Below, one piece after another: positions 13,521 through 33,631 of a DNA stretch of 34,811 nt. The first letter of the stretch is position 1; each line of letters opens with the position of its first letter. The stretch is from Oscillospiraceae bacterium (lineage in GTDB: Bacteria; Bacillota; Clostridia; Oscillospirales; UBA929), in NCBI GenBank assembly GCA_031253545.1, contig JAIRWH010000075.1, forward strand, positions 1 through 34,811, in the 5' to 3' direction. The position numbers and the translations under genes were made by a program. The notes beneath the pieces were generated by a model. That model ran no database searches. It was not told where the DNA came from and worked only from the letters and a program-made list of their open reading frames with translations.

Positions 13521-13542
13521 TGCCGCCTCGCCCCCTGTGGTA

Positions 13543-13572: not shown

Positions 13573-13674
13573 GGCAATAAGGGTATGACAGGTTCGACGG
13601 GTCGCTCGGCAACACGCCGGATGTGTTCGGCCTTTCCGCCTTGAAAAGTTTACAAAATATTCACACACTTTTCC

Positions 13675-17316: not shown

Positions 17317-18605
17317 AAGACGCGCTGACGACGCTGACGCGGGACAAAGACGTGCTGCTGCTCGGTTACGGCAGAGAGGGGCGCTCCACGTTCCGTTTGC
17401 TCTCCGGCTTGGGCGTGTGCAAACGCTTAGACGTGGCGGACATAAACCCTTTGCCGCTTTTGCCTTCCGGCAGCGCCGCCGTGTCGGGCGAGGGATACAT
17501 GGATAACCTCGGCGATTATGATATAGTGTTTCTCTCGCCGGGGGTGGCGCTGCCGCAACCCCCGGAAAAGTACGGTTGCCGCTTTTGCTCACAAACGGAG
17601 GTCTTTTTAGGTGTCTACGGCGAACGGACGGCGGGCGTTACGGGCACCAAGGGCAAAAGCACCGTGTCGTCCATGTTGCGCCATGCTTTACGCGCTGCGG
17701 GGCGCGATTGCCTGCTTGCCGGCAACATCGGCGTGCCGTTGCTTGATGCCGCCGAAACCGCCGCAGAAAATACCGTATTCGTGGCGGAACTTTCCTGCCA
17801 CCAGTTGGAATACTGCCCGCACTCGCCGCGCATAGCGGCGCTGCTTAACCTCTATGAAGACCACCTCGACCGTTATGTCACCATGGAGCGCTACGCTGCG
17901 GCGAAAGCCAACATATACCTCCGCCAAACGCCGGACGGCATACTCTTTTGCGCTTCGGAGCTTGCCGATACCTTGAAAGAGCACGCGGGGCGCGTTGTTT
18001 TCGCGGATAAATGCCTGTTGCCACCCGGCAGCGCCGATTTACTCCAAAGCCGCCGTCTGCTCGGCGAGCACAACTTGCGCAACTGCGCCTTTGCTCACGC
18101 CATGTCACTTGAGATGGGCGTGTCGCAGGAGCGGTTTCTTGCGTCGTTAGAATCGTTTAGTCCGTTGCCGCACAGGTTGGAGTATTTCACCACGAAAGAC
18201 GGCGTGGATTATTACAACGATTCCGTGTCCACCACGGCGGAATCCGCCATATACGCCGTGCGCTCCGTACCGGGAGCCGACATACTGCTGCTCGGGGGTT
18301 TAGACAGGGGCATTGACTATTCGCCGTTGCTCGCGTTTCTGCCGCAAAGCGGTTTGTCGCACGTCATACTGATGTATCAATCGGGGCGGCGGATATACCG
18401 CGAACTCTCATGCGCGAATATAGGTTCCCTGCAAGCGCACTACGCGGCGGATTTAGCCGCCGCCGTGACTTGTGCCGCAACCTTGGCAAAACCCGGCACA
18501 GCCTGCGTACTCTCGCCTGCCGCCGCCAGTTACGATGCTTTCACGGACTTTGCCGAACGGGGGGAAACATTCAAGCGTTTGGTCACGAATCTGACCGCAA
18601 CGTAA
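17313..18605 (+). CDS. murD2: MurD-type ligase, probably UDP-MurNAc-L-Ala:L-Glu ligase (MurD2)
   Basis: Mur ligase of 430 residues that adds glutamate to UDP-MurNAc-L-Ala in cytosolic peptidoglycan synthesis. The start is ATG 17313, overlapping the murL stop by 4 bases; an upstream in-frame ATG at 17283 lies within murL. Domains: N-terminal Rossmann (LLLGYGREGRST), central ATPase with GTKGKST (111-117), ELSCHQLEY, NLYEDHLD (179-186) and the probable carbamylated Lys in AAAKANIY (198), then the C-terminal domain with GEHN (251-254) and SPAAASYDAF. The NDSKATN box of E. coli MurD, whose Lys and Thr lie at the D-Glu site, reads NDSVSTT here (303-308 region). With MurL adjacent this fits an L-Glu-using MurD2. 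The call as a MurD-type ligase is very secure; the L-Glu preference is an inference. Confidence 0.85.
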   Translation: MKDALTTLTRDKDVLLLGYGREGRSTFRLLSGLGVCKRLDVADINPLPLLPSGSAAVSGEGYMDNLGDYDIVFLSPGVALPQPPEKYGCRFCSQTEVFLGVYGERTAGVTGTKGKSTVSSMLRHALRAAGRDCLLAGNIGVPLLDAAETAAENTVFVAELSCHQLEYCPHSPRIAALLNLYEDHLDRYVTMERYAAAKANIYLRQTPDGILFCASELADTLKEHAGRVVFADKCLLPPGSADLLQSRRLLGEHNLRNCAFAHAMSLEMGVSQERFLASLESFSPLPHRLEYFTTKDGVDYYNDSVSTTAESAIYAVRSVPGADILLLGGLDRGIDYSPLLAFLPQSGLSHVILMYQSGRRIYRELSCANIGSLQAHYAADLAAAVTCAATLAKPGTACVLSPAAASYDAFTDFAERGETFKRLVTNLTAT

Positions 18606-18697: not shown

Positions 18698-20149
18698 TTA
18701 CTTGAACACGGCGTCTAAGTAGGTCTGCACAATGCCCTGCCATTGCTCGGCAAACTGGGCGGGGGTGTTGCTGCCGTCGAGGATAGCGCCGATACCGAAG
18801 CCCGCGTCGCGCTCTTCGTCGCGGATTTGCAACATCTTCCACATCTCGAAGCCCGGCATGGTGAGCATCTCGGTAAGATAATCGAATCCGCGCAGCGGGT
18901 CTTCGCCCGGGCGGTCGTCCACGAACTCATACATGAGGTCTTTTATCCAGTCCACATCGTCGCGCAGGGTGGTGTCGTCCCCCCACCAGTGGAGGTAGCG
19001 GTAGAACACGTCAAGCACCACTTCCGGGTCTTTGGTGCCGGTCGGAATCATGTACATATTGCTGTCGGCCACATTGGCGTAAGCCTTCAGCCCCTCGCTC
19101 TGCGCCACGGGACCGATGGGGAACGGCACCGTGCGAATCTCGTCGGGGCACTGCTCACTCATGGATGTGCCCCACGGGCGGGTGTCTTGCGCCAACCAGG
19201 GTACAAAGTAGAAGAAACCGAGGTCGCGCTTGTTCCAGGCTTGCATATCCCAGTAATCCACTTCGTTGTCCCACGGTTTGGCGAGGTTCCATGTGTTGTA
19301 GAGGTCATAGATGAGCTGGAGCACTTCGAGGGTGGCGGGGGAATTGAGCGTTTGCGTGGGGCCGGAAGCCACATAGGCATTATTGGAAAACAGGAAGCGG
19401 ATGAACGACTGCTCATGGCCGCCGCTCCAGCCCCATACGTTTTCCGCGGGGCTCGTGATGGTACGCATCATCTCAATCCAGTTATTCCACGTCCACTCGC
19501 CGCGGTCATAGAGGTCCTGCGGGTTTTCGGTCACTCCGCGCTCTTGCAGCAGCGTCCAGTTGAAACCCATCATGCCGCCGCCGTTGTTGTTTTGGTCCAT
19601 GAGCGGTGTCGGCGCGAAGACATAGGTTTTGTCTTGGCCCATGAGCTTCATGGAGTTCATAACCAGCATATCGTTGAATATGTCATGGTCGGCGGGCAAG
19701 AAGTCCTCAAGCGCGAGGCAGTAGTTGTTGCGTATGGGCGTGAGCAAAAACTGCGGGTCTAAGCAATATATGTCCACATCTGGGGTGCCTGCGGCAATGG
19801 AGGTGAATATGGATTCGCGCGCGCCGTCGAAGGTCATATCCACCATGTTAAACTTTATGTTGTAAAGGTTTTCCACGGCCGTAATCGCGTCCCACTGCAG
19901 CTGCGCGTTGTACTGATTGGTGGCGTTTTCAAGCGAATAGTCCTTGCGGTCGGAGGTGAAGCGTATATCGTTCATCCACCATATACCCACCAATATCTCG
20001 CGCGTGGTCTCGTATCTGTCGCGCACACCCGGCTGGTCGGACGGAGAGGCGCCGGAACCGCTCGGAGAGGAACTGCCGCCGCAGGCGGCCACTAAGGCGC
20101 AGAGCATGGCTGCCGCGAGTAAAAGCGTGATAATCTGACGTGTCTTCAT
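18698..20149 (-). CDS. ABC transporter substrate-binding lipoprotein
   Basis: Extracellular solute-binding protein, family 1 type, anchored by lipid. A Lys/Arg start and hydrophobic core lead to the lipobox LVAAC (Cys23), then a Ser/Gly/Pro linker. The mature protein has typical binding-protein features: AVENLYNIKFNMVDM, AAGTPDVDIYCLDPQ (the 'G.pDV' strand), FAPTPLMDQNNNGGGMMGFN, GEWTWNNWIEMMRTI, PFPIGPVAQSEG and IPTGTKDPEVVLDVFYRYL. Length 483. The start is ATG 20147-20149, with GGAGG upstream; five extra in-frame residues to 20164 are not needed. Last gene of the ten-gene block and separated from the preceding lipoprotein gene by a strong stem-loop. Many aromatic residues suggest a carbohydrate ligand, but the sugar is unknown. 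Confidence 0.9.
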   Translation of the reverse strand: MKTRQIITLLLAAAMLCALVAACGGSSSPSGSGASPSDQPGVRDRYETTREILVGIWWMNDIRFTSDRKDYSLENATNQYNAQLQWDAITAVENLYNIKFNMVDMTFDGARESIFTSIAAGTPDVDIYCLDPQFLLTPIRNNYCLALEDFLPADHDIFNDMLVMNSMKLMGQDKTYVFAPTPLMDQNNNGGGMMGFNWTLLQERGVTENPQDLYDRGEWTWNNWIEMMRTITSPAENVWGWSGGHEQSFIRFLFSNNAYVASGPTQTLNSPATLEVLQLIYDLYNTWNLAKPWDNEVDYWDMQAWNKRDLGFFYFVPWLAQDTRPWGTSMSEQCPDEIRTVPFPIGPVAQSEGLKAYANVADSNMYMIPTGTKDPEVVLDVFYRYLHWWGDDTTLRDDVDWIKDLMYEFVDDRPGEDPLRGFDYLTEMLTMPGFEMWKMLQIRDEERDAGFGIGAILDGSNTPAQFAEQWQGIVQTYLDAVFK

Positions 20150-20212
20150 TTGACAATCCTCCATTTCAATAGTATTGCCCGGGTCTTAGAAACCTTCGGA
20201 AAGCGGTCTTCC

Positions 20213-20246
20213 CTGTTTCTCTCCCCCTGAGGGGGGAGAGAAACAG
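20213..20246 (-). other. Perfect 15-bp intercistronic stem-loop
   Basis: CTGTTTCTCTCCCCC (20213-20227) is the exact reverse complement of GGGGGAGAGAAACAG (20232-20246), with a four-base loop. It lies between two lipoprotein genes of the same operon. No U-tract follows on the minus strand, so it is more likely an RNA-stabilising or partial-termination hairpin that sets separate levels of the two genes than a full terminator. Confidence 0.7.
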
Positions 20247-20295
20247 CTCTTCGCCCTCTTTCCGATAAGCAGGGGTAACGGCAATGCGAACCGCG

Positions 20296-21981
20296 TTACG
20301 GCACATAGATAACAAGGCCGAGCAGCTTGTATTCCGCACCGTCGTCTTGAATCCAAAACGCGTTGAACTGCTCGGCAAAGGTGCCCTTGTCGCCGCCTTT
20401 CAGCTCCCAAATAGCCAAGATTTTCTCGTAGCTTATCTGGTCCACTCCGAGCTCAGGTTGCGCTGTGTCGCCGTCAAACAGAAAACCGTTCTGCTCATCG
20501 CCCACAACGTTGCACCATATCTCTTTGTCGCTGTCGGTCTCGTAACGCTGGAAGATGTACTGCGTCTTTTTTGCGGAGGTGTACACGGCGGTGATATAGC
20601 AGCCCGGCTTAATCCACGCGGGGTCAAAGTAAGCGGCCGGGGCGGCGTCTTCGGGCGCTTGGTTGAGCGTCTCGACCTTATACAGCTGCTTCCAGTTGCC
20701 GGCGGAAGTGAGGTTATAATTGGCCGAGTCGTTAAGCGGCAGAAGGTTCCTGAACTTATTCTGGTATTGGTTTATTTCCACCGTTTTCCACTGCCGCCCG
20801 TCTTCCACGCGCATGCCGATACTGACTTTCTTCACGGTCATAGCCGTACCCGTGTCGCCGATGTGTATGGCGGAAAGGCGCTCTTTGAGGTAAGCGTCGT
20901 CGTTGTTATAGGCGGACACGGCCGTGAAGATGTCTTCATAGCGGAATTGTACGGTGGTGCCGGAGAGGTTGGTCATATACGCCGGTACTTTGCCCCATAT
21001 TTCGCCCTCAAGCGTGCTGCCGTCGTCGTTTTCCGTCTTATACGCGTGCGCAATCAATTCGGGGCAGCGGTCGGCCTCGAACTCGGCCTCGATAATGGCG
21101 CCCGGGACTAACTTGGCGAGCAGCTGCTCAAAGAGCTCGGCATCGGCGCGCTTTTCGGTGGAGGCCGCCTGCCCCCAGCTTTGCGAGGAACCCGTGGCGC
21201 TGCCGTGCATGAAGTCTAATTTGAGCACATCCGTGAGCGCGTAGAGCAACGTGCGGTCGGGGCCGAAGCCGGCGGGCGGGTCAAACGTAACCGAGGTGTC
21301 GGGTGTCATGGCGTTGCCGGCGGCATCCTTAAAGAGGATGTAGTCAATGATGAGGTTGGCGGCGGGCGCTCCCGCCGCGAGCGCGAGGTCACTGTCTTTG
21401 GTGAGCACGAGGATATTCTTCGCGCCGGAGACAAACGCCAGCTCGGCGGGCAGCTCCGCTTTCAGCGTGCGCGGGTTGTTCTTTTCAAGCGCCACGCCCC
21501 AGAGGAACTCCGTGCGCCTGTTGTTTTCGCCCGTGTAAGTATATAGCCTGCCCGAGGCGGCGTAAAACTTGCCGTCGGGGTGCTGTGTGCGAATCCGCGT
21601 TTCTATGGAGCGGATTTTACTCACGTCCTCGCCGAACATACTCGAAATGTCTATACCCAATTGCGGCACACCGTTTTCCGTGAGCTTAACCAACAACGCG
21701 TTGTTGCTGACGGAAAGCTCAGACGGGTCGCCGCCGGCAAGGTTCATCATAAGGTAATCGAGGTTGCTGCCGGCGGCGAAGACCAAGGCTCCGGCCGGCG
21801 GCGGGTCGTTGTTGGGGTTGTCTTCGGGCGGATACCATTGCAAGCCGTCTCCGCCGCCGGAGGGGCTCGGGCTGCCCGACGGAGGGGCGGAGTCGGACGG
21901 GGAGGTGCTGCCGCCGCAGGCGGCAAGCGCGGTGAGCATGAAAAGTGCGGCAAGAAGCAGTGCGAGCGGTTTTGTTCTCAT
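20296..21981 (-). CDS. Lipoprotein of unknown function, probably beta-rich
   Basis: 561-residue lipoprotein: signal peptide with lipobox LAAC (Cys22), then a low-complexity Ser/Pro/Gly/Asp linker of about 30 residues ending in GGGDGLQW. The remainder has alternating hydrophobic strands and patterns such as NLIIDYILFKDAAGNAM and TVQFRYEDIFTAV that recall beta-sandwich carbohydrate-binding folds, but I cannot assign a family. The C-terminal part (YFDPAWIKPGCYITAVYTS, AEYKLLGLVIYVP) is also strand-rich. ATG 21979-21981 has a GAGGGAG RBS. It sits after the second permease pair and before the small solute-binding protein, so an accessory glycan-binding role at the cell surface is the simplest inference. 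Confidence 0.75.
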   Translation of the reverse strand: MRTKPLALLLAALFMLTALAACGGSTSPSDSAPPSGSPSPSGGGDGLQWYPPEDNPNNDPPPAGALVFAAGSNLDYLMMNLAGGDPSELSVSNNALLVKLTENGVPQLGIDISSMFGEDVSKIRSIETRIRTQHPDGKFYAASGRLYTYTGENNRRTEFLWGVALEKNNPRTLKAELPAELAFVSGAKNILVLTKDSDLALAAGAPAANLIIDYILFKDAAGNAMTPDTSVTFDPPAGFGPDRTLLYALTDVLKLDFMHGSATGSSQSWGQAASTEKRADAELFEQLLAKLVPGAIIEAEFEADRCPELIAHAYKTENDDGSTLEGEIWGKVPAYMTNLSGTTVQFRYEDIFTAVSAYNNDDAYLKERLSAIHIGDTGTAMTVKKVSIGMRVEDGRQWKTVEINQYQNKFRNLLPLNDSANYNLTSAGNWKQLYKVETLNQAPEDAAPAAYFDPAWIKPGCYITAVYTSAKKTQYIFQRYETDSDKEIWCNVVGDEQNGFLFDGDTAQPELGVDQISYEKILAIWELKGGDKGTFAEQFNAFWIQDDGAEYKLLGLVIYVP

Positions 21982-22034
21982 AATTTCTCCCTCTCTTTTT
22001 TCGTAATTTTCGGGTGTCTGCGCGTGTATTTGCC

Positions 22035-23030
22035 TCAGCCTACTATGCCGGAACGCTCCACCCCCTCTATAAACCGCTTTTGCAGGATGACGTAGATGAG
22101 TATCATGGGTAATATCATCAGTATTATACCCGCGTATACATAGAGCGCCCTAATGCCGGGGTCGAGTATCTGGTCGGGCGGCCCGGCGAGCGAAAGGTTG
22201 AGCGTATTGAGTTTTTTGCTGATTATGACGTTGTTGCTGATATTGAAGAGGTTGGCGTAGAATATGTCGTTGTATTGCCACACAAGCGAAAAGATGGCCA
22301 CCGTTATAATGGACGGCATGGCGTTGGGTATCATGACGCGCAAAAAAGTATAGAAGGTGCCCGCGCCGTCCACGAAAGCCGCTTCCTCAATCTCTTTGGG
22401 CAACCCCCTGAAAAACTGGTTGAAGATGTAGATATACAGCCCCGACCTCAGGCCGCAGCCGAAGATTGTCATAATATACATCGGCGCGGTGCGCGTCATC
22501 AGATTTATCGGCCCGCCGGCAAACAACGTCATCAGCCCCAATGGGTCAAACTGGCGGAAGGTCATATACAGCGGCAGCATGATAGAGTGGAGCGGTATGA
22601 CGATGACGATGATTACACAAGCAAACAGGAACTTTTTGAGCGGGAACTGAAACCGCGCGAAACCGTAGCCGACCAAGGAGCAGACGGCGATTTGGATAAG
22701 CGTCAGCGTAACCACATAAACCAGCATGGAGCCGAGGACTTTCCAGTAATCAAGCAGCTGGTAGGCGCGGATATACCGCTGCAGCGTGGGGTTTTGGGGA
22801 ATGAGGTAGACCACGGGAGAGAGCTTGTCGCTGTTTGAGAAGAAGGAACTTGCCACAATGCCTATCATGGGGCCGAGTATCACATAGGATATACCCACGA
22901 TGAGCACAAGGCGGAATATGGCCGCGAGCAGCTCGCGCCCGGAGCGCACAGCCCGGCGCGCCTCGTTTTGGAAGCGCGTGTCCTCGCGGAGAGCTTTCAG
23001 CTTGACGATTTTTCCGGCAAAGTAACTCAT
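22035..23030 (-). CDS. Carbohydrate ABC transporter permease (MalG type)
   Basis: Inner-membrane permease of a CUT1 sugar importer, 331 residues. Six membrane helices are visible, starting LVLIVGISYVILGPMIGIVA and ending IILMILPMILIYVILQKRF. The EAA loop that docks the ATPase reads EIEEAAFVDGAGTFYTFLRV followed by MIPNAMP. The C-terminus, RFIEGVERSGIVG, is typical of MalG-type subunits. Start chosen at ATG 23028-23030, with GAGG upstream and just after the partner's stop; the frame extends to 23084 without support. Works with the permease encoded at 23041-23973. No ATPase is encoded nearby. Confidence 0.93.
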   Translation of the reverse strand: MSYFAGKIVKLKALREDTRFQNEARRAVRSGRELLAAIFRLVLIVGISYVILGPMIGIVASSFFSNSDKLSPVVYLIPQNPTLQRYIRAYQLLDYWKVLGSMLVYVVTLTLIQIAVCSLVGYGFARFQFPLKKFLFACVIIVIVIPLHSIMLPLYMTFRQFDPLGLMTLFAGGPINLMTRTAPMYIMTIFGCGLRSGLYIYIFNQFFRGLPKEIEEAAFVDGAGTFYTFLRVMIPNAMPSIITVAIFSLVWQYNDIFYANLFNISNNVIISKKLNTLNLSLAGPPDQILDPGIRALYVYAGIILMILPMILIYVILQKRFIEGVERSGIVG

Positions 23031-23040
23031 CGGCAGAACC

Positions 23041-23973
23041 TCAATTCTGATAGAAGGTGCGCTTGGAGACGGCAGTGGTGGCAATCAGGAGTATGCCGCA
23101 TACCGCAACCATGCTCACAAGGCTGTATACCGCGCCCATTTGGTAGCTGTTGTCTATGCCGAACATAGTGGTGTACACAAAGTCGAGCACGCCGCTCCTC
23201 TGGAAGGAGTCCACCACGGTATACACCATGTTGGTCACAATCAGCGGAGAAACCATGGGGAAGGTAATCTTCCAAAACGTCTCATACGGTGTCGCGCCTT
23301 CAATCTTCGCCACCTCATACAGCGAAGGGGCGATGGATTGCAGCGCCGCGAGGAAGATGATGATTTGCACGCCCGACGATGTGACGATGGAGTTGATGCG
23401 CGCGACCGCGTCCACGATATAGCCGAGTATATTATTCGGCAGGGCTATGTCTCCGAGCAGCTCCACGTAGTAACTCACGCCGATGCCCACGGAGGTGGCT
23501 TCTTCCGTCATTGTGGAGGGTGTGGCGGTCACGCCGCCTATCATCATATTGCGCACGTCGGTGAGCACGCCGTTGATGAGCGGGGAATTGAGCAGCACGG
23601 GCAGGAAGAATATGGCTCTGGCCACCGTGCGCCCGCGAAACTTTTGGTTGAGTATGATGGCGATAAAGAGCGAGAAGAAGATGATGAGCGGCACATCAAT
23701 AACCATGTCAACCACGGAGGACGTGAGTGTCTGCCGGAAGCCGGGGTGCTCAAAGAAGGCGTAACGGTAGTTTTTCAGACCCACATACTCTAAGGAATAA
23801 CCCAAGCCCTGCGTGGTCATGTCGGACAGCGAAAACTGTATGCTCATGATGATACCGCGCAGATAGAACCACACGAAACCGACGATAAACGGCGAAACAA
23901 ACAGCAAACCCGTAAACGCCCTCCTGCGCGAAAGGGTGAAGGTCGTGAGTTTCTTAGTCTTTTGACCGATCAT
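23041..23973 (-). CDS. Sugar ABC transporter permease (MalF/UgpA type)
   Basis: First permease of the second pair, 310 residues. The N-terminus is basic (SRRRAFTG) and leads into LLFVSPFIVGFVWFYLRGI. The EAA loop reads LYEVAKIEGATPYETFWKI followed by TFPMVSP. Six helices are apparent, the last around VSMVAVCGILLIATT. The start at ATG 23971-23973 overlaps the DUF5696 stop by 4 bases and has a GGGAGGCG RBS; ten further in-frame residues are not needed. The long extracellular segment around GGVTATPSTMTEEATSVG, between helices, is longer than in most MalF/UgpA proteins and unusual. Confidence 0.92.
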   Translation of the reverse strand: MIGQKTKKLTTFTLSRRRAFTGLLFVSPFIVGFVWFYLRGIIMSIQFSLSDMTTQGLGYSLEYVGLKNYRYAFFEHPGFRQTLTSSVVDMVIDVPLIIFFSLFIAIILNQKFRGRTVARAIFFLPVLLNSPLINGVLTDVRNMMIGGVTATPSTMTEEATSVGIGVSYYVELLGDIALPNNILGYIVDAVARINSIVTSSGVQIIIFLAALQSIAPSLYEVAKIEGATPYETFWKITFPMVSPLIVTNMVYTVVDSFQRSGVLDFVYTTMFGIDNSYQMGAVYSLVSMVAVCGILLIATTAVSKRTFYQN

Positions 23974-26582
23974 GCCCTGCCGCCTCCCGTCGTTATGTGC
24001 CATCCCCCCGCGGGTATTGTCTCGTCTTCGGTGGTAACGAAGGCTTTGCCGGAATAATTGACATAGATTGCCACGCCGTTGTCATACGTCACCTTGCGCA
24101 CGCCTTCGCCCAAGATGTCGTGCGACTGCACGCAGCTGCCGCTCACAAGGCTCAGCACGGGGTTGACAATGCCATACAGCTCGGCGGCGTAATCAATCCG
24201 GTTCTCCGCGTATGTGCCGTACATGAGGTTGAGGCCCGTATATTTCATGAGGCTCGCCTCCTCGGCGGTGAGCGTGAAGCGCGGCGACGCGCCGTATTCG
24301 AGCAGCCTCAACACCAGCGCCTCTCCGCCGAAAGCGTCGCTGCGGTTGGCGGCGTGGCCGCAATAGGGCAGCAGGCCGTGGATTACCATTTGGTAAAACG
24401 GCACTTCGTCGTCCACAATGAAAAACGCGTTGTGCGAGAGCGGCACACCGATGAGGTCGTCGGCGTGGGCGAAGGCGTAATCGTTGCCGCCCGCCACCAT
24501 AATGTCCTTATCCGATTCTCCGAACTTGGCAAGCTGCGCGGTGACAATGGAAAGCGCCATTTCGCGGTCAATCATTTCCGTGCGTTTGCGGTCGGATTGG
24601 AGTTTATCGCCGAGGTCGCGCAGCGACACGCCCGTGACGGCAAACTTTGAGATATTCTTGATAAACGCGTCCACATAGCGCGTGATGAACTTCGGCGACA
24701 CTATCTCCTTGCCCGTCTCAAAATATCCGAGTGTTGAATCGGGGTAGTAAGTCATCGGGTTCAGTTGGCCTATCCCAATAACATAGCCCACATAGGAGCG
24801 GGAGTTTTGGTGCATGTAGTTGTATCTCGTGCCGCGTGAAACGATGTAGGAGAGGTTTTGCAGCGCGGTGTCGGCGTAGAGTTTGCCGCCTTGGCTCTCC
24901 AACCGCGAGGAAAGCGCCTCTAAGTCTTTTTTGCTCCCAAGCTGCCGCACGAGCTTTATTTTGTCGGGCGCGTCGTGGTAGTAGCCCTTGTTAAACCAGC
25001 CTTGGAGATTGAACACGAGATTGCTCACGCCGCCGCTGTCTAATCGCGCGGCCATCTCGCCGGCCTGCTCGTAGGTCGTCATGGGCACTATGCCCAAATA
25101 CGGCACAGACAGCGCGAACTTTGTGCCCACCGTGGCGCCGATGATGTCCGCGTACAGAGGTATGTCGGACATGGGCAAATTCTCGGCGGGCAGCGCGCCT
25201 TCGCTTTGCAGACGCTCCCTATACGCTCTTGCCATGCCGGAATAACCGCTGTAATCGGCGCTTAAAAACGTGTAGCGCACAGTAAGGTCTGCGTCGTATA
25301 TGTCCGGCTCCACCACGGGCATTTCGTTTTCGTTGCCGGTCGTGCCGAACATAGAGTATGTGGTGCTGCCGCGCACCACAAAATTGGCGCGAATGGCGTT
25401 ATACGGGGTGGTGCCGGACACGGTGGCCATTATCTGCGCGAAAGACTTGCCTTCCTCAATCACGGCCAGTATATCGGAGTTTGCTTTGTGTATGCCGAAT
25501 ACGGGCAGTCTCGCCGGCTCCGTGTTGCCCTGCGTGAGAAACAGCTCGGCAAGCGGGTCCATGTCGTAGATAAACTGCGCGTAGTCGTCGGCGCGACCCT
25601 TGCCGTTGTTGAAGCGTATGAGCGAGCCGGAGCCGTTTGGCACAAGGAAATAGCCTTCTTCGCCTAAGCCCGCCGCGCCGAAATTGCGAAGCAGTTGGAT
25701 TTTGTCTATCCTCGCGCCGCCGCGCTCCTCAATGCGCGAGGTGGCCACCATGGCCACAAGGCTCGCGCCGTCTAAGGTGTATTCCACCGGTATGTCAAAC
25801 GATATGCTTATGGCGCCCTCCACCCCCGACGCAAGGGAATCGGCGATGAGGTCTTCCTCCGTGTAGCCCGCCTCCGCAAGGTCTTGATTCATCCTGGCGA
25901 TAATCGTGGGGCCGCGCGCGTTGTCGCGCAACACTAAGAAGCCGTCCGGCGCGTCGTCTGCGGGGCGGTACTTTTCCTCCACATAGCTCCGTTCGCGGGA
26001 ATCAAATATGTCTTCTATGCGCCGCAGGAAAATCTCCAACCTGTCGCGGTGGATGTAGATTGGCACATTTCTCGTGCGCACGGTGAGGTCGCCGAGCGTG
26101 TAGGTAACGCGAAGGCCGCCGGGTATACTCTCCAGCACCACGGGGTTGCCGTTGCGCACGGCCATGTCGTAGGATATATAGCGACCGGGCGTGCGCGTGG
26201 CGTTGAAGAAGTCCACTACCAGCACAGACCTGAGCAACGATTTATTGTAGGTGTTGATACTGTCGTCGTTTTCCACGCCCGGGGGGTTGGCGTATGTCAC
26301 AACGCCGGTGGCGGCGTTGTATACGGCGATGTCGCCGGAGGCGCTGTCCGCATACAGCTGCAAGATGCCGTTGTCGGCGGCGAGCTCCATGCCTTCCACC
26401 ATGCCGCCGCCCGCCAACGGGGCAAACGGACGGCCCTCCGCGTACACACGCTCACGGTCGGGGAGATACCGCGCATAGCCGTTGTACATACGGTAATGGA
26501 AATGGATATAGCCTTGGTAAGCCAAGACCGCCAGGAAGGCGACGGCAAGGGCCGCAATAAACAGTTTCTTCCCGAGTCTCAA
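23970..26582 (-). CDS. DUF5696 family membrane-anchored protein, possible glycoside hydrolase-like
   Basis: A large extracytoplasmic protein (about 870 residues) with one N-terminal membrane anchor (LFIAALAVAFLAVLAYQGY). Residues about 50-440 are strand-rich (ADSASGDIAVYNAATGVVTY, LRVTYTLGDLTV). From about 445 (YSGMARAYRERL) to about 800 the pattern looks like a TIM barrel, with strand-end acidic motifs GVSLRDLGD (about 651-659) and MVAGGNDYAFAHADD (about 695-709). The end (VRKVTYDNGVAIYVNYS) resembles the C-terminal beta domain of glycoside hydrolases. Function is not known to me; the enzyme idea is an inference. The start is best placed at TTG 26580-26582, with GAGGAGG eight bases upstream; GTG 26591 is too close to that site. 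It ends in an ATGA overlap with the next permease. Confidence 0.8.
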   Translation of the reverse strand: MRLGKKLFIAALAVAFLAVLAYQGYIHFHYRMYNGYARYLPDRERVYAEGRPFAPLAGGGMVEGMELAADNGILQLYADSASGDIAVYNAATGVVTYANPPGVENDDSINTYNKSLLRSVLVVDFFNATRTPGRYISYDMAVRNGNPVVLESIPGGLRVTYTLGDLTVRTRNVPIYIHRDRLEIFLRRIEDIFDSRERSYVEEKYRPADDAPDGFLVLRDNARGPTIIARMNQDLAEAGYTEEDLIADSLASGVEGAISISFDIPVEYTLDGASLVAMVATSRIEERGGARIDKIQLLRNFGAAGLGEEGYFLVPNGSGSLIRFNNGKGRADDYAQFIYDMDPLAELFLTQGNTEPARLPVFGIHKANSDILAVIEEGKSFAQIMATVSGTTPYNAIRANFVVRGSTTYSMFGTTGNENEMPVVEPDIYDADLTVRYTFLSADYSGYSGMARAYRERLQSEGALPAENLPMSDIPLYADIIGATVGTKFALSVPYLGIVPMTTYEQAGEMAARLDSGGVSNLVFNLQGWFNKGYYHDAPDKIKLVRQLGSKKDLEALSSRLESQGGKLYADTALQNLSYIVSRGTRYNYMHQNSRSYVGYVIGIGQLNPMTYYPDSTLGYFETGKEIVSPKFITRYVDAFIKNISKFAVTGVSLRDLGDKLQSDRKRTEMIDREMALSIVTAQLAKFGESDKDIMVAGGNDYAFAHADDLIGVPLSHNAFFIVDDEVPFYQMVIHGLLPYCGHAANRSDAFGGEALVLRLLEYGASPRFTLTAEEASLMKYTGLNLMYGTYAENRIDYAAELYGIVNPVLSLVSGSCVQSHDILGEGVRKVTYDNGVAIYVNYSGKAFVTTEDETIPAGGWHITTGGGRA

Positions 26583-26595
26583 GCGCGGCACCTCC

Positions 26596-27228
26596 TCAGT
26601 TACGGAGTATCATCTCGGTGTATATGCTGTAAAAGAAGACATACACCTGATTGAACAAGTCAAAAAACAGCAGCGCCACGAAGATGATGATGAGCATGGC
26701 CACAAAGGTAAACAGTAGCGTAATCAATGTTTTCAGCAACGTGTAGTTGTGTATGGTCATAATGCCGCTGAGTACCAGCAGCGCCGTCCACGCGATGCCC
26801 AGACCCATGATGAGGGTATATATGACCTCCTCATTGGCGGCGAGGGCGTTTGATATAATAATGGCGGGTATAAACGTCAGTATCAGCGGCAGGAAAGAGT
26901 AGCCGGTAACCGTCAGTATATCAACAAAGCGCCCCTCGCCTTCCATGAGGCAGGTGATGGACCAGTTGCCTATACAAAACAGTATGTAGAGGAGCAACAC
27001 GCTCTGCAAGTCAGAGAAACCGTTCACGGTGCGCGGGTCGGTGAGGTTGACAATGAACCCCGCGAACACGCGGTTGAGCGTGTAGCAGAAACTGAATATT
27101 ATGACCGTGAGAAAGGCAAGCGGCACACTGCCCGCGTTTCTGTGGCGTATCTCATAGAAACTGTCAAGCGGCGCGTGCAGCACACGGAAGAAATACTCCC
27201 ACTTGCTCCGCGTGAAGTATTTACCCAT
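26596..27228 (-). CDS. YIP1 family integral membrane protein
   Basis: 210-residue protein with about five membrane segments (LAFLTVIIFSFCYTLNRVFA, LLLYILFCIGNWSITCLMEG, FLPLILTFIPAIIISNALA, IMGLGIAWTALLVLSGIMTI, LITLLFTFVAMLIIIFVALL). The CLMEGEGRF..DI..VTGYSFLPLI block is the YIP1 signature. YIP1-like bacterial proteins have no established function. Starts 8 bases inside the NHL gene's end, and the DUF5696 gene begins 13 bases after it, so the trio NHL-YIP1-DUF5696 is translated as a unit and probably forms a membrane complex. Confidence 0.87.
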   Translation of the reverse strand: MGKYFTRSKWEYFFRVLHAPLDSFYEIRHRNAGSVPLAFLTVIIFSFCYTLNRVFAGFIVNLTDPRTVNGFSDLQSVLLLYILFCIGNWSITCLMEGEGRFVDILTVTGYSFLPLILTFIPAIIISNALAANEEVIYTLIMGLGIAWTALLVLSGIMTIHNYTLLKTLITLLFTFVAMLIIIFVALLFFDLFNQVYVFFYSIYTEMILRN

Positions 27229-28678
27229 CGGCGAGCAGATTCCCCTTTCCCTTCTTCTTTCCGCGATTTATGATTCTGTTCCACACAAACCGGCACACGA
27301 GCAACAGTATGACCGCCGTGAGCATATAGCCGAGGTTTGCCTTGAGGAAATCGTTGCGGTAGCGCTTGAAAGCTATGGAGTAATATGTGCGGTTCATGCC
27401 GAGTTTCAGGTGTTTCATCGCCTCGGCGTTGTCGCCCGCCGTGAGATACGCCTTTCCGATGCCTATATTGGCGAGTTCCAAGTTTTCGTTGAGCGTGAGC
27501 ACTTGTTCCCATACGCCCACGGCTTCCTCCTCGTCGCCGTCGTAGCGCATACCCACGGCCAAGTTGATAAGCCTGCCGTACTCGGTTTCGCTGAACACCA
27601 TTATCTCCTGCCTGTCGGCATCCAACGCCAGAAACGCGCCGCTGCCCGTGTCTTCGATGGCCACGGGCTGCCTGAACGTGCCGACTTGGGAACCCAACCC
27701 GCCGAAGATATAGAGCATATTGCCCTCGTTGTCGTAGGTAAACACACGGCCGCGCTCGGCGTCGAGCATGCTGTACACGCCTTTGCCGCGCTCAATTATG
27801 TCCACCATGCGCGACGGCCTGCCGTACTGCACAGATATGTCGCCGCCTAAGTTGCCGTTCTCACCTCTCTTTATCACATCCTCGCCCTTGGGGTTGAGCC
27901 GAAATGCCGCCTGCACCCCGTCCGTGTCAATGAATGAGGCGTATACAAAACCCATGGGGTCCACGTCCACGCCGGTAAACTCTGTGGCGATAAACAGCGA
28001 CTGCCGCTGCTCCACCGTGGAAAACAAGCGCCAGAAACGCTGCCACAGCGTTATTTTCACGGAAATGGTACCGAAGAAACCGGTAAACTCGCCCTCTTCG
28101 GTGAATACCATGATACCTTGAAACATATTGCGCGCGATGACATACACCCTGTCGGCATAGTCCACAGCCAATTTGAGCGGCACAAAAGCGTAATCGTCCG
28201 GCAGCATTTCCGAACGCGGGTTCTGCACAATCTGCACAAGCGCGCCGTCTTTGTTGAGCACCACCACGCGCCGGTTTTCCGTGTCCGCCACATAGAGCAG
28301 GTTTTTTTCCGATACGGTCACGCCGAACGGTCGGGAGAAACTGTCCGGTTCGCCGTTGTTGATAAAGGTGTCTATGACTTCCGCCTGCGTGAAATCGGGG
28401 CTGATTTTCACCACGCGGTTATTGCCGGAGTCCGCCACATATACATATCCGTCGGGGCTGACGCACATGCCTTGCGGATTGGCGAAGGCACCCACGCCGA
28501 GCGTTATGCCCGATATTGTGCCCGTGGGCACATAAGGGGCGGGGGTAAACTCAATATAGCCCCTGTAATTGTATATGTATGAATCATACGGCACATCGAG
28601 CGCGGCGCGGGCGGGTGCCGCAACCGCAGAAAAAAGCAGCGGCACGGCACACAGGAGAAACGGTAATTTTTTTCTCAT
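27221..28678 (-). CDS. Membrane-anchored NHL-repeat propeller protein with TPR region
   Basis: 485-residue exported protein. A signal peptide (LPFLLCAVPLLFSAVAAPARA) is followed by five or six NHL blades, e.g. ANPQGMCVSPDGYVYVADSG with NNRVVKI, SRPFGVTVSEKNLLYVADTE, FTGVDVDPMGFVYASF and GTFRQPVAIEDTGSGAFLAL. A helical TPR-like part follows (AVGVWEQVLTLNENLELANI, AYLTAGDNAEAMKHLKLGM), then one C-terminal membrane helix (MLTAVILLLVCRFVW) and a Lys-rich tail. The propeller would lie outside, tethered at its C-terminus. NHL propellers bind proteins, RNA or sugars; here a scaffold or glycan-sensing role is plausible. The start is ATG 28676-28678, with AGGAAG upstream; GTG 28687 lacks spacing. Confidence 0.85.
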   Translation of the reverse strand: MRKKLPFLLCAVPLLFSAVAAPARAALDVPYDSYIYNYRGYIEFTPAPYVPTGTISGITLGVGAFANPQGMCVSPDGYVYVADSGNNRVVKISPDFTQAEVIDTFINNGEPDSFSRPFGVTVSEKNLLYVADTENRRVVVLNKDGALVQIVQNPRSEMLPDDYAFVPLKLAVDYADRVYVIARNMFQGIMVFTEEGEFTGFFGTISVKITLWQRFWRLFSTVEQRQSLFIATEFTGVDVDPMGFVYASFIDTDGVQAAFRLNPKGEDVIKRGENGNLGGDISVQYGRPSRMVDIIERGKGVYSMLDAERGRVFTYDNEGNMLYIFGGLGSQVGTFRQPVAIEDTGSGAFLALDADRQEIMVFSETEYGRLINLAVGMRYDGDEEEAVGVWEQVLTLNENLELANIGIGKAYLTAGDNAEAMKHLKLGMNRTYYSIAFKRYRNDFLKANLGYMLTAVILLLVCRFVWNRIINRGKKKGKGNLLADG

Positions 28679-28690
28679 TTGCGCCACTTC

Positions 28691-29599
28691 CTATTCCTTA
28701 ATGCCGGAGGTCGTCATGGTTTCCAATATACTCGACTGGCAGAGGAGGAAGAAGGTAATGGGTATGGCGGCAAGCACAAACGCCACGGCCGCAGCCTCGC
28801 CCGCCCGCGCGGGGCCGCCGGCCATGATTTGCTGCATGGCAAACTGGAGCGGCTTGAGCTCCTCGCTTCTGATAAACAGATAGCCCGTGTTTCCCCACAT
28901 GAGGTTGAACTGGAATATGGCCAGCGTGAGCCAGGCGGGCTTCACGTTGGGCATTATAATCAGCCAAAACACCCGCATCTCGCTCGCGCCGTCTATGCGC
29001 GCGGATTCGATGAGAGAATCGGGTATCTGCTCCATAAACTGTTTCATGAGATACAGCCCTATGCCGTAACCCCACGCGGGTATAATGAGCGCGAGGTGGG
29101 TGTTGTTGATACCCAGATAGGATATGATGACGTAGTTGGGTATCTGCGTGACTTGCCAGGTGAACATGAGCGAGAGTATGACCAATGTGAACAGGAATGT
29201 CTTGCCGGGAAACTTGTGCTTTGCCAAGGGGTACGCCGCGAAAGACGCGATTATGACATGACCCACGGTGCCGCCGCCGGTGATGATGATAGTGTTGAGT
29301 ATATAGCGCGAGAAAGGCACCCATGTGCCGCTCATTTGCACAAACAAATCGGTGAAGTTCTCAAACGTGGGGTAGCGCACGAAGATTCTGGGCGGAAATT
29401 GGTAAATCTCGTCGAGAGGTTTCAAGGCGTTGTTGACAATCATCACGAGCGGCAAAGCCATAAACACGCCGCAGATTGCCATGAACGTGAAGAGCAACGC
29501 GTTGCCCGCGCGCGAACGGTTGAGCTTTGACCTGCGCGGAAACAGGCGCTCGCGCAGCGTCTCCTTCTCGATGATAACCATCGGTTTTCCGGAAACCAT
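28691..29599 (-). CDS. Carbohydrate ABC transporter permease (MalG type)
   Basis: Second permease of the first pair, 302 residues. A basic cytoplasmic N-terminus (RERLFPRRSKLNRSRAG) is followed by NALLFTFMAICGVFMALPLV and the NNALKPLDEIYQFPPRIF segment shared by MalG-type subunits. The EAA loop is LIESARIDGASEMRVFWLI followed by IMPNVKP. Six helices are present. ATG 29597-29599 has GGGGGAG upstream and lies four bases after the partner permease stop. Expected to form the channel with the 29604-30518 product. Confidence 0.93.
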   Translation of the reverse strand: MVSGKPMVIIEKETLRERLFPRRSKLNRSRAGNALLFTFMAICGVFMALPLVMIVNNALKPLDEIYQFPPRIFVRYPTFENFTDLFVQMSGTWVPFSRYILNTIIITGGGTVGHVIIASFAAYPLAKHKFPGKTFLFTLVILSLMFTWQVTQIPNYVIISYLGINNTHLALIIPAWGYGIGLYLMKQFMEQIPDSLIESARIDGASEMRVFWLIIMPNVKPAWLTLAIFQFNLMWGNTGYLFIRSEELKPLQFAMQQIMAGGPARAGEAAAVAFVLAAIPITFFLLCQSSILETMTTSGIKE

Positions 29600-29603
29600 G
29601 CGG

Positions 29604-30518
29604 TTACTCCCCCACTCTTCTCAATAACCGCTGCACCAATTTGTTTGTGCCCACCATGAGCAAAAACAGCAATGTGGCGATGGCGGCGGCATAGCCCATC
29701 TCGAAACGCACCCCGCCGTAATCGAGCAGGTGCGTGACTATCGTGGCCCCGGCGTAGCCCACCGACGGGTTGCCGGCAAGCTGTATGGAAATGTCGGCGA
29801 TGGCGAAAGAGCCGGTGATTTGCATAACCGCGCCGAACATGAGCTGCGGCTTCATGGCCGGCAGCGTGACATACCACAGCTCTTGCCAGCGGTTCTTTAT
29901 ACCGTCTATGGCGGCGGCCTCGTAGAGCGTTTTATCTATCGTCTGCAAGCCCGCGATGAAGGCGAGGAAGCCCGTGCCCAAGCTGAGCCAAAGCTGCACC
30001 ACGATGAGCACGGGCAGCACATAGTTATATGTCTTCATCCACAGCACGGGCTCCTGCAAGAACCCCCAGCGTATGAGCAAGCCGTTGAGATAGCCGTAGC
30101 GGTCGCCGGTGAGGATGATGTTCCAGATGAGAAACGCCTGCCCGGATATGGAGGGCGCGTAAAAGATGAGCGTGAGGAAAGCGCGCAGCCTGCCCCTGAA
30201 TTCGTTGATAATCCAGGCGAACAGCAGGCACAGCACATAGCTCACCGGGCCCGTGACCACGGCAAGCACCAAGGTGTTTTTCAGCGCCAGTATGAAGATG
30301 TCGTCTTCAAGCAAGAGCTTGAGGTAATTGCCCCAACCGAGCCAACGCGGCATGGAGAGCATATCGAAGTACGTGAGGCTGATGACCATGGAGGAAATGA
30401 CGGGCAAGATTGTGAAGAATGTGAAAATGAGAAAATACGGCGCTATCATGAGGTATGACACACGGTTTTTGGCTATTTGCGTCCGAAGCGGGATTTTATA
30501 CTCGTTTTGCTTTGTCAT
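29604..30518 (-). CDS. Sugar ABC transporter permease (MalF/UgpA type)
   Basis: First permease of the first pair, 304 residues. Helix 1 is SYLMIAPYFLIFTFFTILPV, typical of UgpA/LacF-type permeases, and MVISLTYFDM follows. The EAA loop reads LYEAAAIDGIKNRWQELWYV followed by TLPAMKP. ATG 30516-30518 has GAGGAGG upstream and overlaps the stop of the large binding protein by 4 bases, which argues that they form one importer. Confidence 0.93.
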   Translation of the reverse strand: MTKQNEYKIPLRTQIAKNRVSYLMIAPYFLIFTFFTILPVISSMVISLTYFDMLSMPRWLGWGNYLKLLLEDDIFILALKNTLVLAVVTGPVSYVLCLLFAWIINEFRGRLRAFLTLIFYAPSISGQAFLIWNIILTGDRYGYLNGLLIRWGFLQEPVLWMKTYNYVLPVLIVVQLWLSLGTGFLAFIAGLQTIDKTLYEAAAIDGIKNRWQELWYVTLPAMKPQLMFGAVMQITGSFAIADISIQLAGNPSVGYAGATIVTHLLDYGGVRFEMGYAAAIATLLFLLMVGTNKLVQRLLRRVGE

Positions 30519-33463
30519 TGCCCGACCTCCTCGCCATACAGCGGGAGGCCGAACTCCCGCCGCTTGAAGTCAATCTCCTCGTTTATCAGCAGCACTTTGT
30601 CTGTGAGCGCCTCGCGGGGGAACTCAAAGACTATCTCATTTGAGCCGATGACACTTCTGCCGATGACCGAGGCGTAAAAGGCGTTGTTGATATTGCGGAA
30701 GCTGAAGTAGCCGCCCGGCACCTGCGGTATGCCGCGCACTTGCGCAAATTGGGCGCTGAGCGCGTTATAGTCGGTCACCGGCCACGGCAGGCGGTCAAAG
30801 GCCTCCACATTGGCGGACGGGTGCCTTGCCGCCGCGCCCATAAGGCTTTCCATCTCACGCCCGAAACGCGTCTGTGTGTCGGCGCTTGTCCACCATTTGA
30901 GGAACTGCCAGGCGTTGTCTTTGACCTTTGAGGCGCTCATGATAACGCAGGCCGAGCCGTAGCTGCCCACCGTGCGGTCGAGCGTGCCGTCGGGGCGCGC
31001 GGTGGCCGGCACGGGGCCGAACCCCCAAAGCCCTTTTATCTCCGGCGCCGAGACTTGCAATATGTTGTAGAACGTGTAATCTTGGATTATGATGGGTGCC
31101 TCGCCCGTGCGGAACCGCTCCTCCACGCTCGTTTCCCTGTCTAAGCGGTAGTCGGTATACAGCTCCGTGTAGAGCTTGAAGGCGAGGTAGCCTTCGTCGT
31201 TGTCGAGCAGAGAGCGCGTGGCGTTTTCGTTGTAATACTCCCCGCCGTTTTGGAAAAGCAGCATGGCGTATATGGGCTCCGCGGGCAGCATACCCAAGTC
31301 CATTTGGTTATTGGCAAGCACGGCCAACGACACCTTCACATCGTCCCACGTCTGCGGCAGACCCAGACCCAGCTCCTTTAATATATCCTTGCGGTAAAAC
31401 ATCATTGGGAATGTCTCCGTTTCGGGCAATGCGTATACCGCGCCGTCGTAGCTGTAGGGGGTCATAATGCTCGGGCGGAAACGCGCGAGCACCTCGCGCA
31501 GGTCGGAAAACTGCGTGAGGTCCGTAACCGCTTTGCGCAGACCGTAATTCATGGGCAAGTCGTTGGTCACCTGTATGGCCACATCGGGGCCTTGCCCGGC
31601 CAACGTGGCTTGCAGCAGGGTGCCCATGTCCACCAACATGACGTTTACGTTGATGTTTTCTTCTTTTGTGAAGCTCTCGTCAATAAGCGACTTGATTACG
31701 CCGGCTTGGTCGCGCCCGGAGCCAATCCAGAGCGTGATAGCCTCGGCGTCGCCTTTGGCCACATTGCCCACTTGGTTGTAGTCTATCACAAACGAGAAGA
31801 ACAGGCGCGAGAGCTCGAACCACATACGGGAAAAGAAGTTGCCCCCGCTCGGGCGCACACGCTCGCCGGGCGGGTGGAGCGTGATGGTGTCTAACTGGAG
31901 GGGCTGCTCCAAGGCCTGCGTGAGCCATGTGCCGCAGGCGCGTATATTCTGCCGGAAGGATGTGATGGTGCGGGCGAAACGCTCCGGGTCGTGTATCAGC
32001 TCGTCCAAGTGGGTAATCATCGTCTTTATAACGCGCTCACGGTCGCTGCGGCGGTCGGAAGTTTCCAGCAAGGCGTCAAGCGCCCACTGCAACCTGTCCC
32101 TCACGGCCACCATCTCGCCTTTGAGCTCCGGCAGGCTGCGGTTGATTTGGTAGCTGCGGTTTCTGTCGGGCGCCACGCCCGTAAGGCGAATGACCTTGCG
32201 GTATATGCGGTTGAGGTCGCTCACGGAATCGCGCACCGCCCCTATGACCTCCGAGAGGCTCCCCAGCACGGCCTCGAAGCGCAGTATGTGCGCGCCTTGC
32301 GTGAGGTATATCTTGTACTGCCCGCCTTCGCCGCCGAGTGCCTCGGCCCGCCAATTCTGCCTATATACAAAGCCGTAATCCTCAAACTCGGCAAACGGCA
32401 CCTCGCCGTCCACGGTAATCTTGCGGGACACATAGACCCCGCGCGAAAAGTTTTGCAAAGCGTGCGCCGTAATGGAGTATAAGCCGTCTTCCGGCGCGTG
32501 GAACTCCCATTCTATCCATTGGCCGGAGGTTCGCCAGCCGCCTCCGCCGATGGTGTTGTTGAGCAGATAACGCGCGCTTGAGGGCGATACCGTGGGGGAG
32601 GATTGGTCCTGGCGCGGGTAAAGCATTTGTGAAGAAGTCTTCACGGCGTTTTGCGCCTGAATGACCACCCTTTGCGAAGCATCCTTCGCTCCGGCGGCAA
32701 TATGCTCCGCCAGATACTGCTCATACGGTTTGGCTTGCGCGCCGTTGGTGAGCGTGATACCGCCTATGAGCATGGGTTCGCGCAGGGAAACTATAGTGAG
32801 CGTGTGCCGCCCCGCGTCAAAATAAAGGCTGAGGCGCTTGGTGATATAGCCGTCGCTGTCATAGAGGTAACTGTCTATCCATTCGGGGCATTCCAACATT
32901 ATCGGTTTCAAGTCGTTGCCCTGGTTGTCGCGCGCCCACTCCGGTTCCGTTTTACCGGCGGCCTTGGCCTCCGCCACTGCTTCGTTGTGCCATATGCGGG
33001 GGAACTCCACACAGGCAAGCTCGCGGTAGGGCAGCTCGCCGTTCACGAAGAAAGCGCGCTGTATCTCCGCGCTTTTGCCCTCGGCGGGGTAATAACGCAT
33101 ATTTATCTCGTAAAGGCCTGCCTGCGTTATGTCAACTTCATATTCTATTACGGCATCTTCGGCGGTGAGCACACTGACGCCCGATTGACCCTCGAAGTCG
33201 GTAAGCGTGGCGGGCAGGGTGGGCACGCCGCCTTCGGTGTAGGAGGCGAAACCCGCCGCGTCTATTGAGATTTGCCCGCTTGGCCTGTGCTGCGGGTGGG
33301 AATCGAGGTAGGTTAAGTAAGCCGGCACAGAGTAATCCACGGAGTATTCCGCCAGAATATCCTCATAATCAAGGCGTGTCTTATCGCCCGGCGTATAAGC
33401 GAAAGCCGGAGTCGCCGCAAGCAACGCAAACGCCACCACAAAAGCTATCGCGCCACGACACAT
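30515..33463 (-). CDS. Giant multidomain ABC solute-binding protein (982 aa)
   Basis: Exported protein about twice the size of normal binding proteins. A Sec signal peptide ends at TPAFA-Y with no lipobox Cys. Two beta-sandwich regions resembling CBM6/35-type modules follow: about 60-245 (IEYEVDITQAGLYEINMRYY, VNGELP) and about 265-405 (SGQWIEWEFHAPEDGLYSIT, VDGEVPFAEF). Next is a helical region (about 405-540), an amphipathic or membrane-associating stretch (FFSRMWFELSRLFFSFVIDY, about 543-562), then a family 1 solute-binding domain from about 570 (AITLWIGSGRDQAGVIKSLI, GQGPDVAIQVTNDLP, YALPETETFPMMFYRKDIL). Start ATG 33461-33463 is set by the signal peptide; GGAG lies 13 bases upstream. The open frame continues to 33670, but that part is a translation of the tRNA. 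First gene of the block; overlaps its permease by 4 bases. Confidence 0.9.
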   Translation of the reverse strand: MCRGAIAFVVAFALLAATPAFAYTPGDKTRLDYEDILAEYSVDYSVPAYLTYLDSHPQHRPSGQISIDAAGFASYTEGGVPTLPATLTDFEGQSGVSVLTAEDAVIEYEVDITQAGLYEINMRYYPAEGKSAEIQRAFFVNGELPYRELACVEFPRIWHNEAVAEAKAAGKTEPEWARDNQGNDLKPIMLECPEWIDSYLYDSDGYITKRLSLYFDAGRHTLTIVSLREPMLIGGITLTNGAQAKPYEQYLAEHIAAGAKDASQRVVIQAQNAVKTSSQMLYPRQDQSSPTVSPSSARYLLNNTIGGGGWRTSGQWIEWEFHAPEDGLYSITAHALQNFSRGVYVSRKITVDGEVPFAEFEDYGFVYRQNWRAEALGGEGGQYKIYLTQGAHILRFEAVLGSLSEVIGAVRDSVSDLNRIYRKVIRLTGVAPDRNRSYQINRSLPELKGEMVAVRDRLQWALDALLETSDRRSDRERVIKTMITHLDELIHDPERFARTITSFRQNIRACGTWLTQALEQPLQLDTITLHPPGERVRPSGGNFFSRMWFELSRLFFSFVIDYNQVGNVAKGDAEAITLWIGSGRDQAGVIKSLIDESFTKEENINVNVMLVDMGTLLQATLAGQGPDVAIQVTNDLPMNYGLRKAVTDLTQFSDLREVLARFRPSIMTPYSYDGAVYALPETETFPMMFYRKDILKELGLGLPQTWDDVKVSLAVLANNQMDLGMLPAEPIYAMLLFQNGGEYYNENATRSLLDNDEGYLAFKLYTELYTDYRLDRETSVEERFRTGEAPIIIQDYTFYNILQVSAPEIKGLWGFGPVPATARPDGTLDRTVGSYGSACVIMSASKVKDNAWQFLKWWTSADTQTRFGREMESLMGAAARHPSANVEAFDRLPWPVTDYNALSAQFAQVRGIPQVPGGYFSFRNINNAFYASVIGRSVIGSNEIVFEFPREALTDKVLLINEEIDFKRREFGLPLYGEEVGQ

Positions 33464-33544: not shown

Positions 33545-33631
33545 TGGTGCGGCTAAGAGGACTTGAACCTCCACCCAATTGCTCGGACCGGCACCTGAAG
33601 CCGGCGCGTCTGCCAATTCCGCCATAGCCGC
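33545..33631 (-). tRNA. tRNA-Leu (CAG)
   Basis: An 87-base class II tRNA on the minus strand. The acceptor stem GCGGCTA/TAGCCGC is perfect and is followed by A and an encoded CCA. The anticodon stem CCGGC/GCCGG encloses TTCAGGT, giving anticodon CAG, which reads CUG leucine codons. A long variable arm and the GGTTCAAGTCC T-loop are present. It lies about 80 bases upstream of the large solute-binding protein gene. Confidence 0.95.

Follow-up and report, generated by a model that had tools for sequence, protein, structure and literature searches.

A conserved eight-gene cassette of Gram-positive bacteria combines two CUT1 permease pairs with an NHL-YIP1 centre and a putative pseudo-glycosidase receptor

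Our survey of loci encoding DUF5696 proteins revealed an eight-gene cassette, SBPL-PermA1-PermA2-NHL-YIP1-DUF5696-PermB1-PermB2 (names as in Table 1), that is real and keeps its gene order unchanged in Gram-positive bacteria that are only distant relatives. We consider it reasonably probable, partly by inference, that the eight core genes encode a single cell-surface machine of Gram-positive bacteria for the capture and import of glycans, probably those of plants, with a pseudo-glycosidase receptor and a shared ATPase. One copy lies in the window, by which we mean the whole 34,811-nucleotide stretch of DNA analysed here (Oscillospiraceae bacterium, contig JAIRWH010000075.1); its source is a 1.80 Mb draft genome that is 97% complete.

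The block at 18698-33463 of the window comprises ten open reading frames, all on the minus strand. Open reading frames, Pfam domains and spacings agree with the first-pass annotation, which had claimed ten same-strand genes, tightly spaced, in the order of Table 1. SBPL starts at the ATG at 33463, with AAAGGAG upstream. In transcription order, the gene spacings are -4, +4, +3, -8, +4, -34, -44, +53 and +131 nt, where the -34 and -44 overlaps depend on the starts chosen by the ORF finder and later in-frame starts would give smaller overlaps. The true start of PermB1 is probably the ATG near 23973, and that of PermB2 probably lies downstream of the listed TTG. The genes thus abut or overlap as far as PermB2, while LP is preceded by 53 nt and SBP2 by 131 nt. 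A promoter and terminator scan of the block performed no better than shuffled sequences and was uninformative on shared regulation.

Table 1. Genes of the block in transcription order, with the upstream boundary marker
Feature	Description	Position	Strand	Evidence
SBPL	Secreted 982-aa receptor	30515..33463	-	SBP_bac_1 E 1e-23
PermA1	CUT1 permease, MalF/UgpA type	29604..30518	-	BPD_transp_1 E 1e-12
PermA2	CUT1 permease, MalG/UgpE type	28691..29599	-	BPD_transp_1 E 1e-13; UgpE-like 87 bits
NHL	NHL protein	27221..28687	-	NHL E 3e-15
YIP1	YIP1-family membrane protein	26596..27228	-	Yip1 E 4e-12
DUF5696	DUF5696 protein	23970..26591	-	DUF5696 E 9e-175
PermB1	CUT1-type permease	23041..24003	-	BPD_transp_1 E 6e-11
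PermB2	CUT1-type permease	22035..23084	-	BPD_transp_1 E 3e-13
LP	Lipoprotein with two CBM65-like regions	20296..21981	-	CBM65_1 E 9e-20 (two matches); lipobox
SBP2	Solute-binding lipoprotein	18698..20164	-	SBP_bac_1 E 1e-5, just below cut-off; lipobox
tRNA-Leu(CAG)	5' boundary marker	33545..33631	-	ARAGORN and Rfam; 82 nt upstream of SBPL

The tRNA-Leu gene was the sole match in an Rfam search of the window. We found no support for it as the attachment site of a genomic island, its 3' end having no second copy in the window. Elsewhere in the window, a 453-aa open reading frame for which Pfam returned nothing overlaps the gene of a MurD-like Mur ligase (15955-18605, plus strand, opposite to the block), and DUF3810 and DUF5685 proteins (12327-13577 and 6388-7227, minus strand) are encoded near cdaA-ybbR and aconitase genes.

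The block had been described as a mirror-image plan, with a solute-binding protein and two permeases on either side of the centre. The core is instead organized as a direct repeat, (SBPL-perm-perm)-(NHL-YIP1)-(DUF5696-perm-perm), and the mirror appearance arises because LP and SBP2, which are confined to the nearest clade, close the block. LP occurs in the nearest relatives only, where SBP2 follows either PermB2 or LP. Both genes are clade-specific additions outside the core, and we no longer count them as parts of a conserved machine. In two related genomes (loci L053 and L076), a 772-773-aa WD40-like propeller protein starts 8 nt behind PermB2 and is a possible further accessory; the L053 copy, the one that was scanned, also gave a weak GH16 match.

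Profiles of each core protein were searched against 20-kb loci around DUF5696, and the complete core order was recovered in 41 of 49 loci, an arrangement far beyond chance. Seven of the remaining eight loci are interrupted by a contig end, and one (L061) is the sole clear rearrangement, with PermB1-PermB2 relocated ahead of SBPL, followed by a GH31 and a GH106-like gene. YIP1-DUF5696-PermB1-PermB2 occurred in order in all 24 further phylum-wide loci, which lie outside the set used for building the profiles. Scattering of the genes in relatives, set beforehand as a refutation of the one-machine proposal, was therefore not seen.

DUF5696 was detected in 31 of 57 relatives, with a strong match in all but one, and a strong score was obtained in ~25 of 300 sampled Bacillota genomes (~8%, our own count). 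The N-terminal half of SBPL was detected in 29 of the 30 genomes with strong DUF5696 and in none of the remaining genomes; the locus of the single exception (G030) sits on an 8-kb contig that begins within the cassette. Similar clusters, mentioned in the first-pass annotation for Paenibacillus and Clostridia, were indeed found there, and the cassette reaches Paenibacillus, Cohnella and Butyrivibrio. Named carriers include Lachnospiraceae MAGs, Cohnella, Paenibacillus mendelii, Paenibacillus cellulosilyticus (HUB94_RS00520 to RS00490) and plasmid pNP243 of Butyrivibrio fibrisolvens D1 (WAA20_RS20545 to RS20510). Several genomes have more than one copy, from two up to a maximum of six. One 1.8-Mb genome (G026) holds six divergent DUF5696 loci (L046, L057-L061), each with different glycosidase or other neighbours.

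No relative was found in viral contigs. Two records labelled 'Bacteriophage sp.', MT835600.1 (locus L121) and MT835587.1, both encode DUF5696. MT835600.1, flagged UNVERIFIED, carries the full ten-gene cassette together with GH130, GH5, DnaB-like helicase and MerR-like genes, and this gene content suggests that the record is bacterial DNA wrongly labelled as phage.

Beyond gene order, the core proteins show correlated divergence. Pairwise-distance matrices of the eight proteins across 35 loci correlated with r of 0.78-0.93, part of which reflects shared species history, though several of the genomes contribute multiple copies; in 2000 permutations of each of the four pairs tested, r did not exceed 0.27. 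SBPL, PermA1 and PermA2 form one tight group (r 0.89-0.93), and NHL, DUF5696, PermB1 and PermB2 form a second (r 0.87-0.92), with DUF5696 correlating less with PermA (0.78-0.80) than with NHL and PermB (0.87-0.92). PermA is the most conserved part of the cassette (45-49% mean identity), and its loops ahead of the EAA motif differ by no more than 3 residues, compared with up to 30 in PermB; the variable loop of PermB1 is external. From these correlation groups, identities and loop lengths, we read the cassette as comprising a constant half and a variable half. NHL and YIP1 are fused into a single polypeptide in 19 of 42 loci; in the other 23 they are separate neighbouring genes. Fixed order, correlated divergence and this fusion favour one unit over two unrelated importers, as had been proposed. 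What stands of that proposal is the functional unit, shown by co-inheritance, whose products may assemble into a physical complex.

The largest component, SBPL, contains a signal peptide, two CBM35-like beta-sandwich regions, a helical bundle, a conserved amphipathic helix and a C-terminal family-1 solute-binding protein (SBP) domain, which Pfam places at residues 589-864 of 982. The best PDB profile match of the SBP domain is Lin1841 (5ysb, E 8e-35), a beta-1,2-glucan oligosaccharide SBP of Listeria innocua. The N-terminal half has no Pfam match; its CBM35-type matches among PDB profiles are weak to moderate, with the CITase CBM35 region (5x7g) at E 4e-11 and 2vzp, a weak match, at E 3e-4. 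A low-confidence structural model (pLDDT 49) agrees in secondary structure with this layout. The SBPL and DUF5696 models are both weak, having been built from 5-6 sequences, and we used them for fold search and secondary structure only. Solute-binding proteins of Gram-positive bacteria are usually anchored as lipoproteins. The lipobox pattern matched 0 of 37 SBPL homologues, although in two of them a Cys lies close to where the signal peptide ends. Without a recognisable lipid anchor in a Gram-positive bacterium, SBPL would need another tether, for which NHL-YIP1 is the obvious candidate. NHL is predicted to consist of a signal peptide, an NHL beta-propeller, a TPR-like helical stretch and a C-terminal transmembrane segment (447-465), and YIP1 has about five transmembrane segments, judged from five hydrophobic segments.

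DUF5696 consists of an N-terminal transmembrane anchor, a beta-sandwich, a GH129-like TIM barrel and a C-terminal Ig-like domain. Its family profile matched DagB (5opq, E 8e-13) and NagBb (E 5e-9) in the PDB, and hhalign against a profile of four aligned GH129 proteins gave a probability of 98.8% over 490 columns. Foldseek with the mediocre DUF5696 model (pLDDT 58) likewise retrieved 5opq (E 9e-22) and NagBb (~1e-15), then the GH101 enzyme EngBF. The invariant GH129 nucleophile Asp (NagBb D435, corresponding to DagB D486) aligns with R658, a position acidic in 7 of 41 members, and the invariant Glu (acid/base, E440 in the alignment made here) aligns with V699, acidic in 0 of 41. In DagB, mutation of D486, E517, E531 or D202 abolishes activity (PMC5698469). 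A GGNxY motif is conserved at the end of the acid/base strand (N703 in 35/41, Y705 in 36/41), a position that fits a binding pocket.

We therefore rejected DUF5696 as a plain GH129 enzyme, both aligned catalytic positions being non-acidic in the window copy and in most members, and the glycan-processing role suggested in the first-pass annotation appears unlikely. The case for catalytic loss draws on sequence profiles, because the structural model is mediocre. The family most likely binds glycans rather than cutting them, with the caveat that residue 659, next to the aligned nucleophile, is acidic in 20 of 41 members, including the window copy (D659).

All four permeases match CUT1. The EAA motif is retained in 37/39 PermA1, 38/39 PermA2, 41/46 PermB1 and 37/46 PermB2 homologues (a strict pattern was used for PermB2), so a shared ATPase could power both pairs. 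No ATPase gene was found in the window block. One ATPase of the OB_MalK type (MalK/MsmX) was found in the genome, an orphan located on another contig (C57) away from permeases. In P. cellulosilyticus, ugpC opens the cassette operon 37 nt upstream of SBPL. On C57, the orphan ATPase gene adjoins a gene for a 750-aa protein that, judged by eye, resembles a CotH-type kinase with chitobiase-like repeats (L086:7327-9579, minus strand).

The genomic neighbours of the cassette link the clade of the window to beta-mannan. GH26 lies directly upstream of SBPL in five relatives (L031, L032, G010, G017 and G008), and the distance from the end of a GH26-CBM35 gene to SBPL is 15-22 nt in L031, L032, L037 and L039, the L032 copy being read from its near-identity with L031. 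Behind SBP2, L033 carries GH130, GDSL and CE2 genes, and the human faecal scaffold L121 carries DUF624, LacI, GH130 and GH5 behind its ten-gene set. Among 18 family genomes, strong GH26 and strong GH130 matches co-occur in exactly G007, G008, G010, G014, G016 and G017, that is, in 6 of 7 ten-gene carriers, and 0 of 11 non-carriers have a strong match to either (Fisher p ~4e-4, with the window genome as the exception); this split also holds within two genera. GH26 and GH130 are both absent from the genome of the window, in the window itself and elsewhere. This genome encodes three GH5 lipoproteins, and the two that were compared share 35-40% identity with the cassette-adjacent GH5 of L121. Our best guess is that the window cargo consists of beta-mannan-type or related hemicellulose fragments.

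Neighbours at other loci include GH78, GH127, GH2, GH31, GH106, and GH30/GH16 or GH43, and at many copies the adjoining genes are housekeeping genes, without a glycosidase in the vicinity. This variation among loci implies a general engine with variable cargo. What comes after the P. cellulosilyticus cassette (L120; NZ_CP054609.1, 76369-108126) is not a set of glycosidases but four LLM-class flavin oxidoreductases, an NADPH oxidoreductase and two SBPs, which suggests a very different cargo. Together with the housekeeping neighbours, these flavin oxidoreductases indicate that the cargo is not always hemicellulose.

These features can be integrated into a putative mechanism. The NHL propeller, outside the cell, and YIP1, in the membrane, would form a scaffold holding SBPL and the membrane-anchored DUF5696 beside both permease pairs. 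SBPL would deliver substrate to PermA1-PermA2, and DUF5696, acting without catalysis, would receive glycans for PermB1-PermB2 or guide them there; the variable loops of this pair may set the substrate range. A single shared ATPase of the MsmX/UgpC type would power both pairs. In the clade of the window, the CBM65-like LP and SBP2 would have been added, and the cargo may be hemicellulose oligosaccharides of the beta-mannan type or a related beta-1,4-linked type. Having no GH26 or GH130, the window strain might feed on fragments released by its own GH5 enzymes or by its neighbours. In its most specific form, this proposal describes a composite importer of a new category, in which two permease pairs share one NHL-YIP1 scaffold and one ATPase, the dead glycosidase DUF5696 serves as receptor of the second pair, and the first receptor keeps hold of long glycans that are threaded or handed over to the second. 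We advance this version tentatively, as a possibility short of an even chance.

Two ordinary CUT1 importers of different specificity could also be co-transcribed with a surface glycosidase for a common polymer, DUF5696 being active through non-canonical residues and NHL and YIP1 being accessory. The EAA motifs kept in all four permeases would suit this arrangement, as would D659 and D667, which are present in the window and in part of the DUF5696 family, and an SBP that follows PermB2 at some loci could serve PermB. However, at many loci PermB lacks a neighbouring second SBP, the catalytic positions of DUF5696 are not conserved, and the NHL-YIP1 fusion is conserved at the centre of the cassette. 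Unrelated importers, moreover, would not be expected to diverge in a correlated way and to stay paired, in one order, in 41 of 49 loci, and we regard this explanation as unlikely.

A sensing role, with permease pairs and extracellular domains acting as a transceptor that reports a surface polymer to neighbouring regulators, would suit the histidine kinase and response regulator encoded ahead of the cassette in Butyrivibrio and the LacI gene downstream in L121. We find it improbable: the core has no conserved companion regulator, regulators are missing from the vicinity of most copies, and in NHL, YIP1 and DUF5696 Pfam detected no domain for cytoplasmic signalling. Also improbable, in our assessment, is the handling of cell-envelope or secreted polymers (assembly, recycling or attachment) in place of nutrient import. 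YIP1 and NHL are unusual for importers, and some copies stand alone among housekeeping genes without a glycosidase, yet an SBP domain and CUT1 permeases are components of importers, and in the clade of the window GH26 and GH130 go with the cassette.

A literature search returned no mention of DUF5696 or PF18952 and nothing on the cassette, consistent with the earlier statement that it has no defined function, and databases give its parts generic names only. The parts belong to known families; the composite, a CUT1 importer variant, is undescribed in the literature and databases searched. We know of no SusCD-like outer-membrane machine in Gram-positive bacteria, whose capture and uptake of large glycans are poorly understood. 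If the machine proposed here is real, a cassette that joins a pseudo-glycosidase to two ABC channels would constitute a major undescribed route of glycan uptake. It offers a testable function for DUF5696 and bacterial YIP1 proteins, and cultured carriers are available in B. fibrisolvens D1 and P. cellulosilyticus.

Comparison with known systems places the cassette closest to CUT1 importers that share an ATPase (MsmX/UgpC), with which it has in common a family-1 SBP, MalF/MalG-like pairs with EAA loops, and an operon devoid of an ATPase gene combined with an orphan MalK-type ATPase elsewhere in the genome. It differs from them in its two permease pairs, its giant non-lipidated CBM-SBP fusion and its fixed NHL-YIP1-DUF5696 centre. 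Described beta-mannan loci of gut Bacillota combine GH26, GH130 and CE2 with an ABC importer that has a single SBP and permease pair. The cassettes of relatives resemble these loci in adjoining GH26-CBM35, GH130, GH5 and CE2 genes, whereas the window genome has no GH26 or GH130. Lin1841 provides the closest PDB match to the SBP domain of SBPL but has no counterpart of its 550-residue CBM-like and helical N-terminal half. DUF5696 shares the beta-sandwich, TIM barrel and Ig-like domains of the GH129 enzyme NagBb (5wzn) and the GH129-like 3,6-anhydro-D-galactosidase DagB (5opq; PMC5698469); unlike them, it is membrane anchored and carries R658 and V699 at the nucleophile and acid/base positions, which are non-acidic in 34/41 and 41/41 members, respectively.
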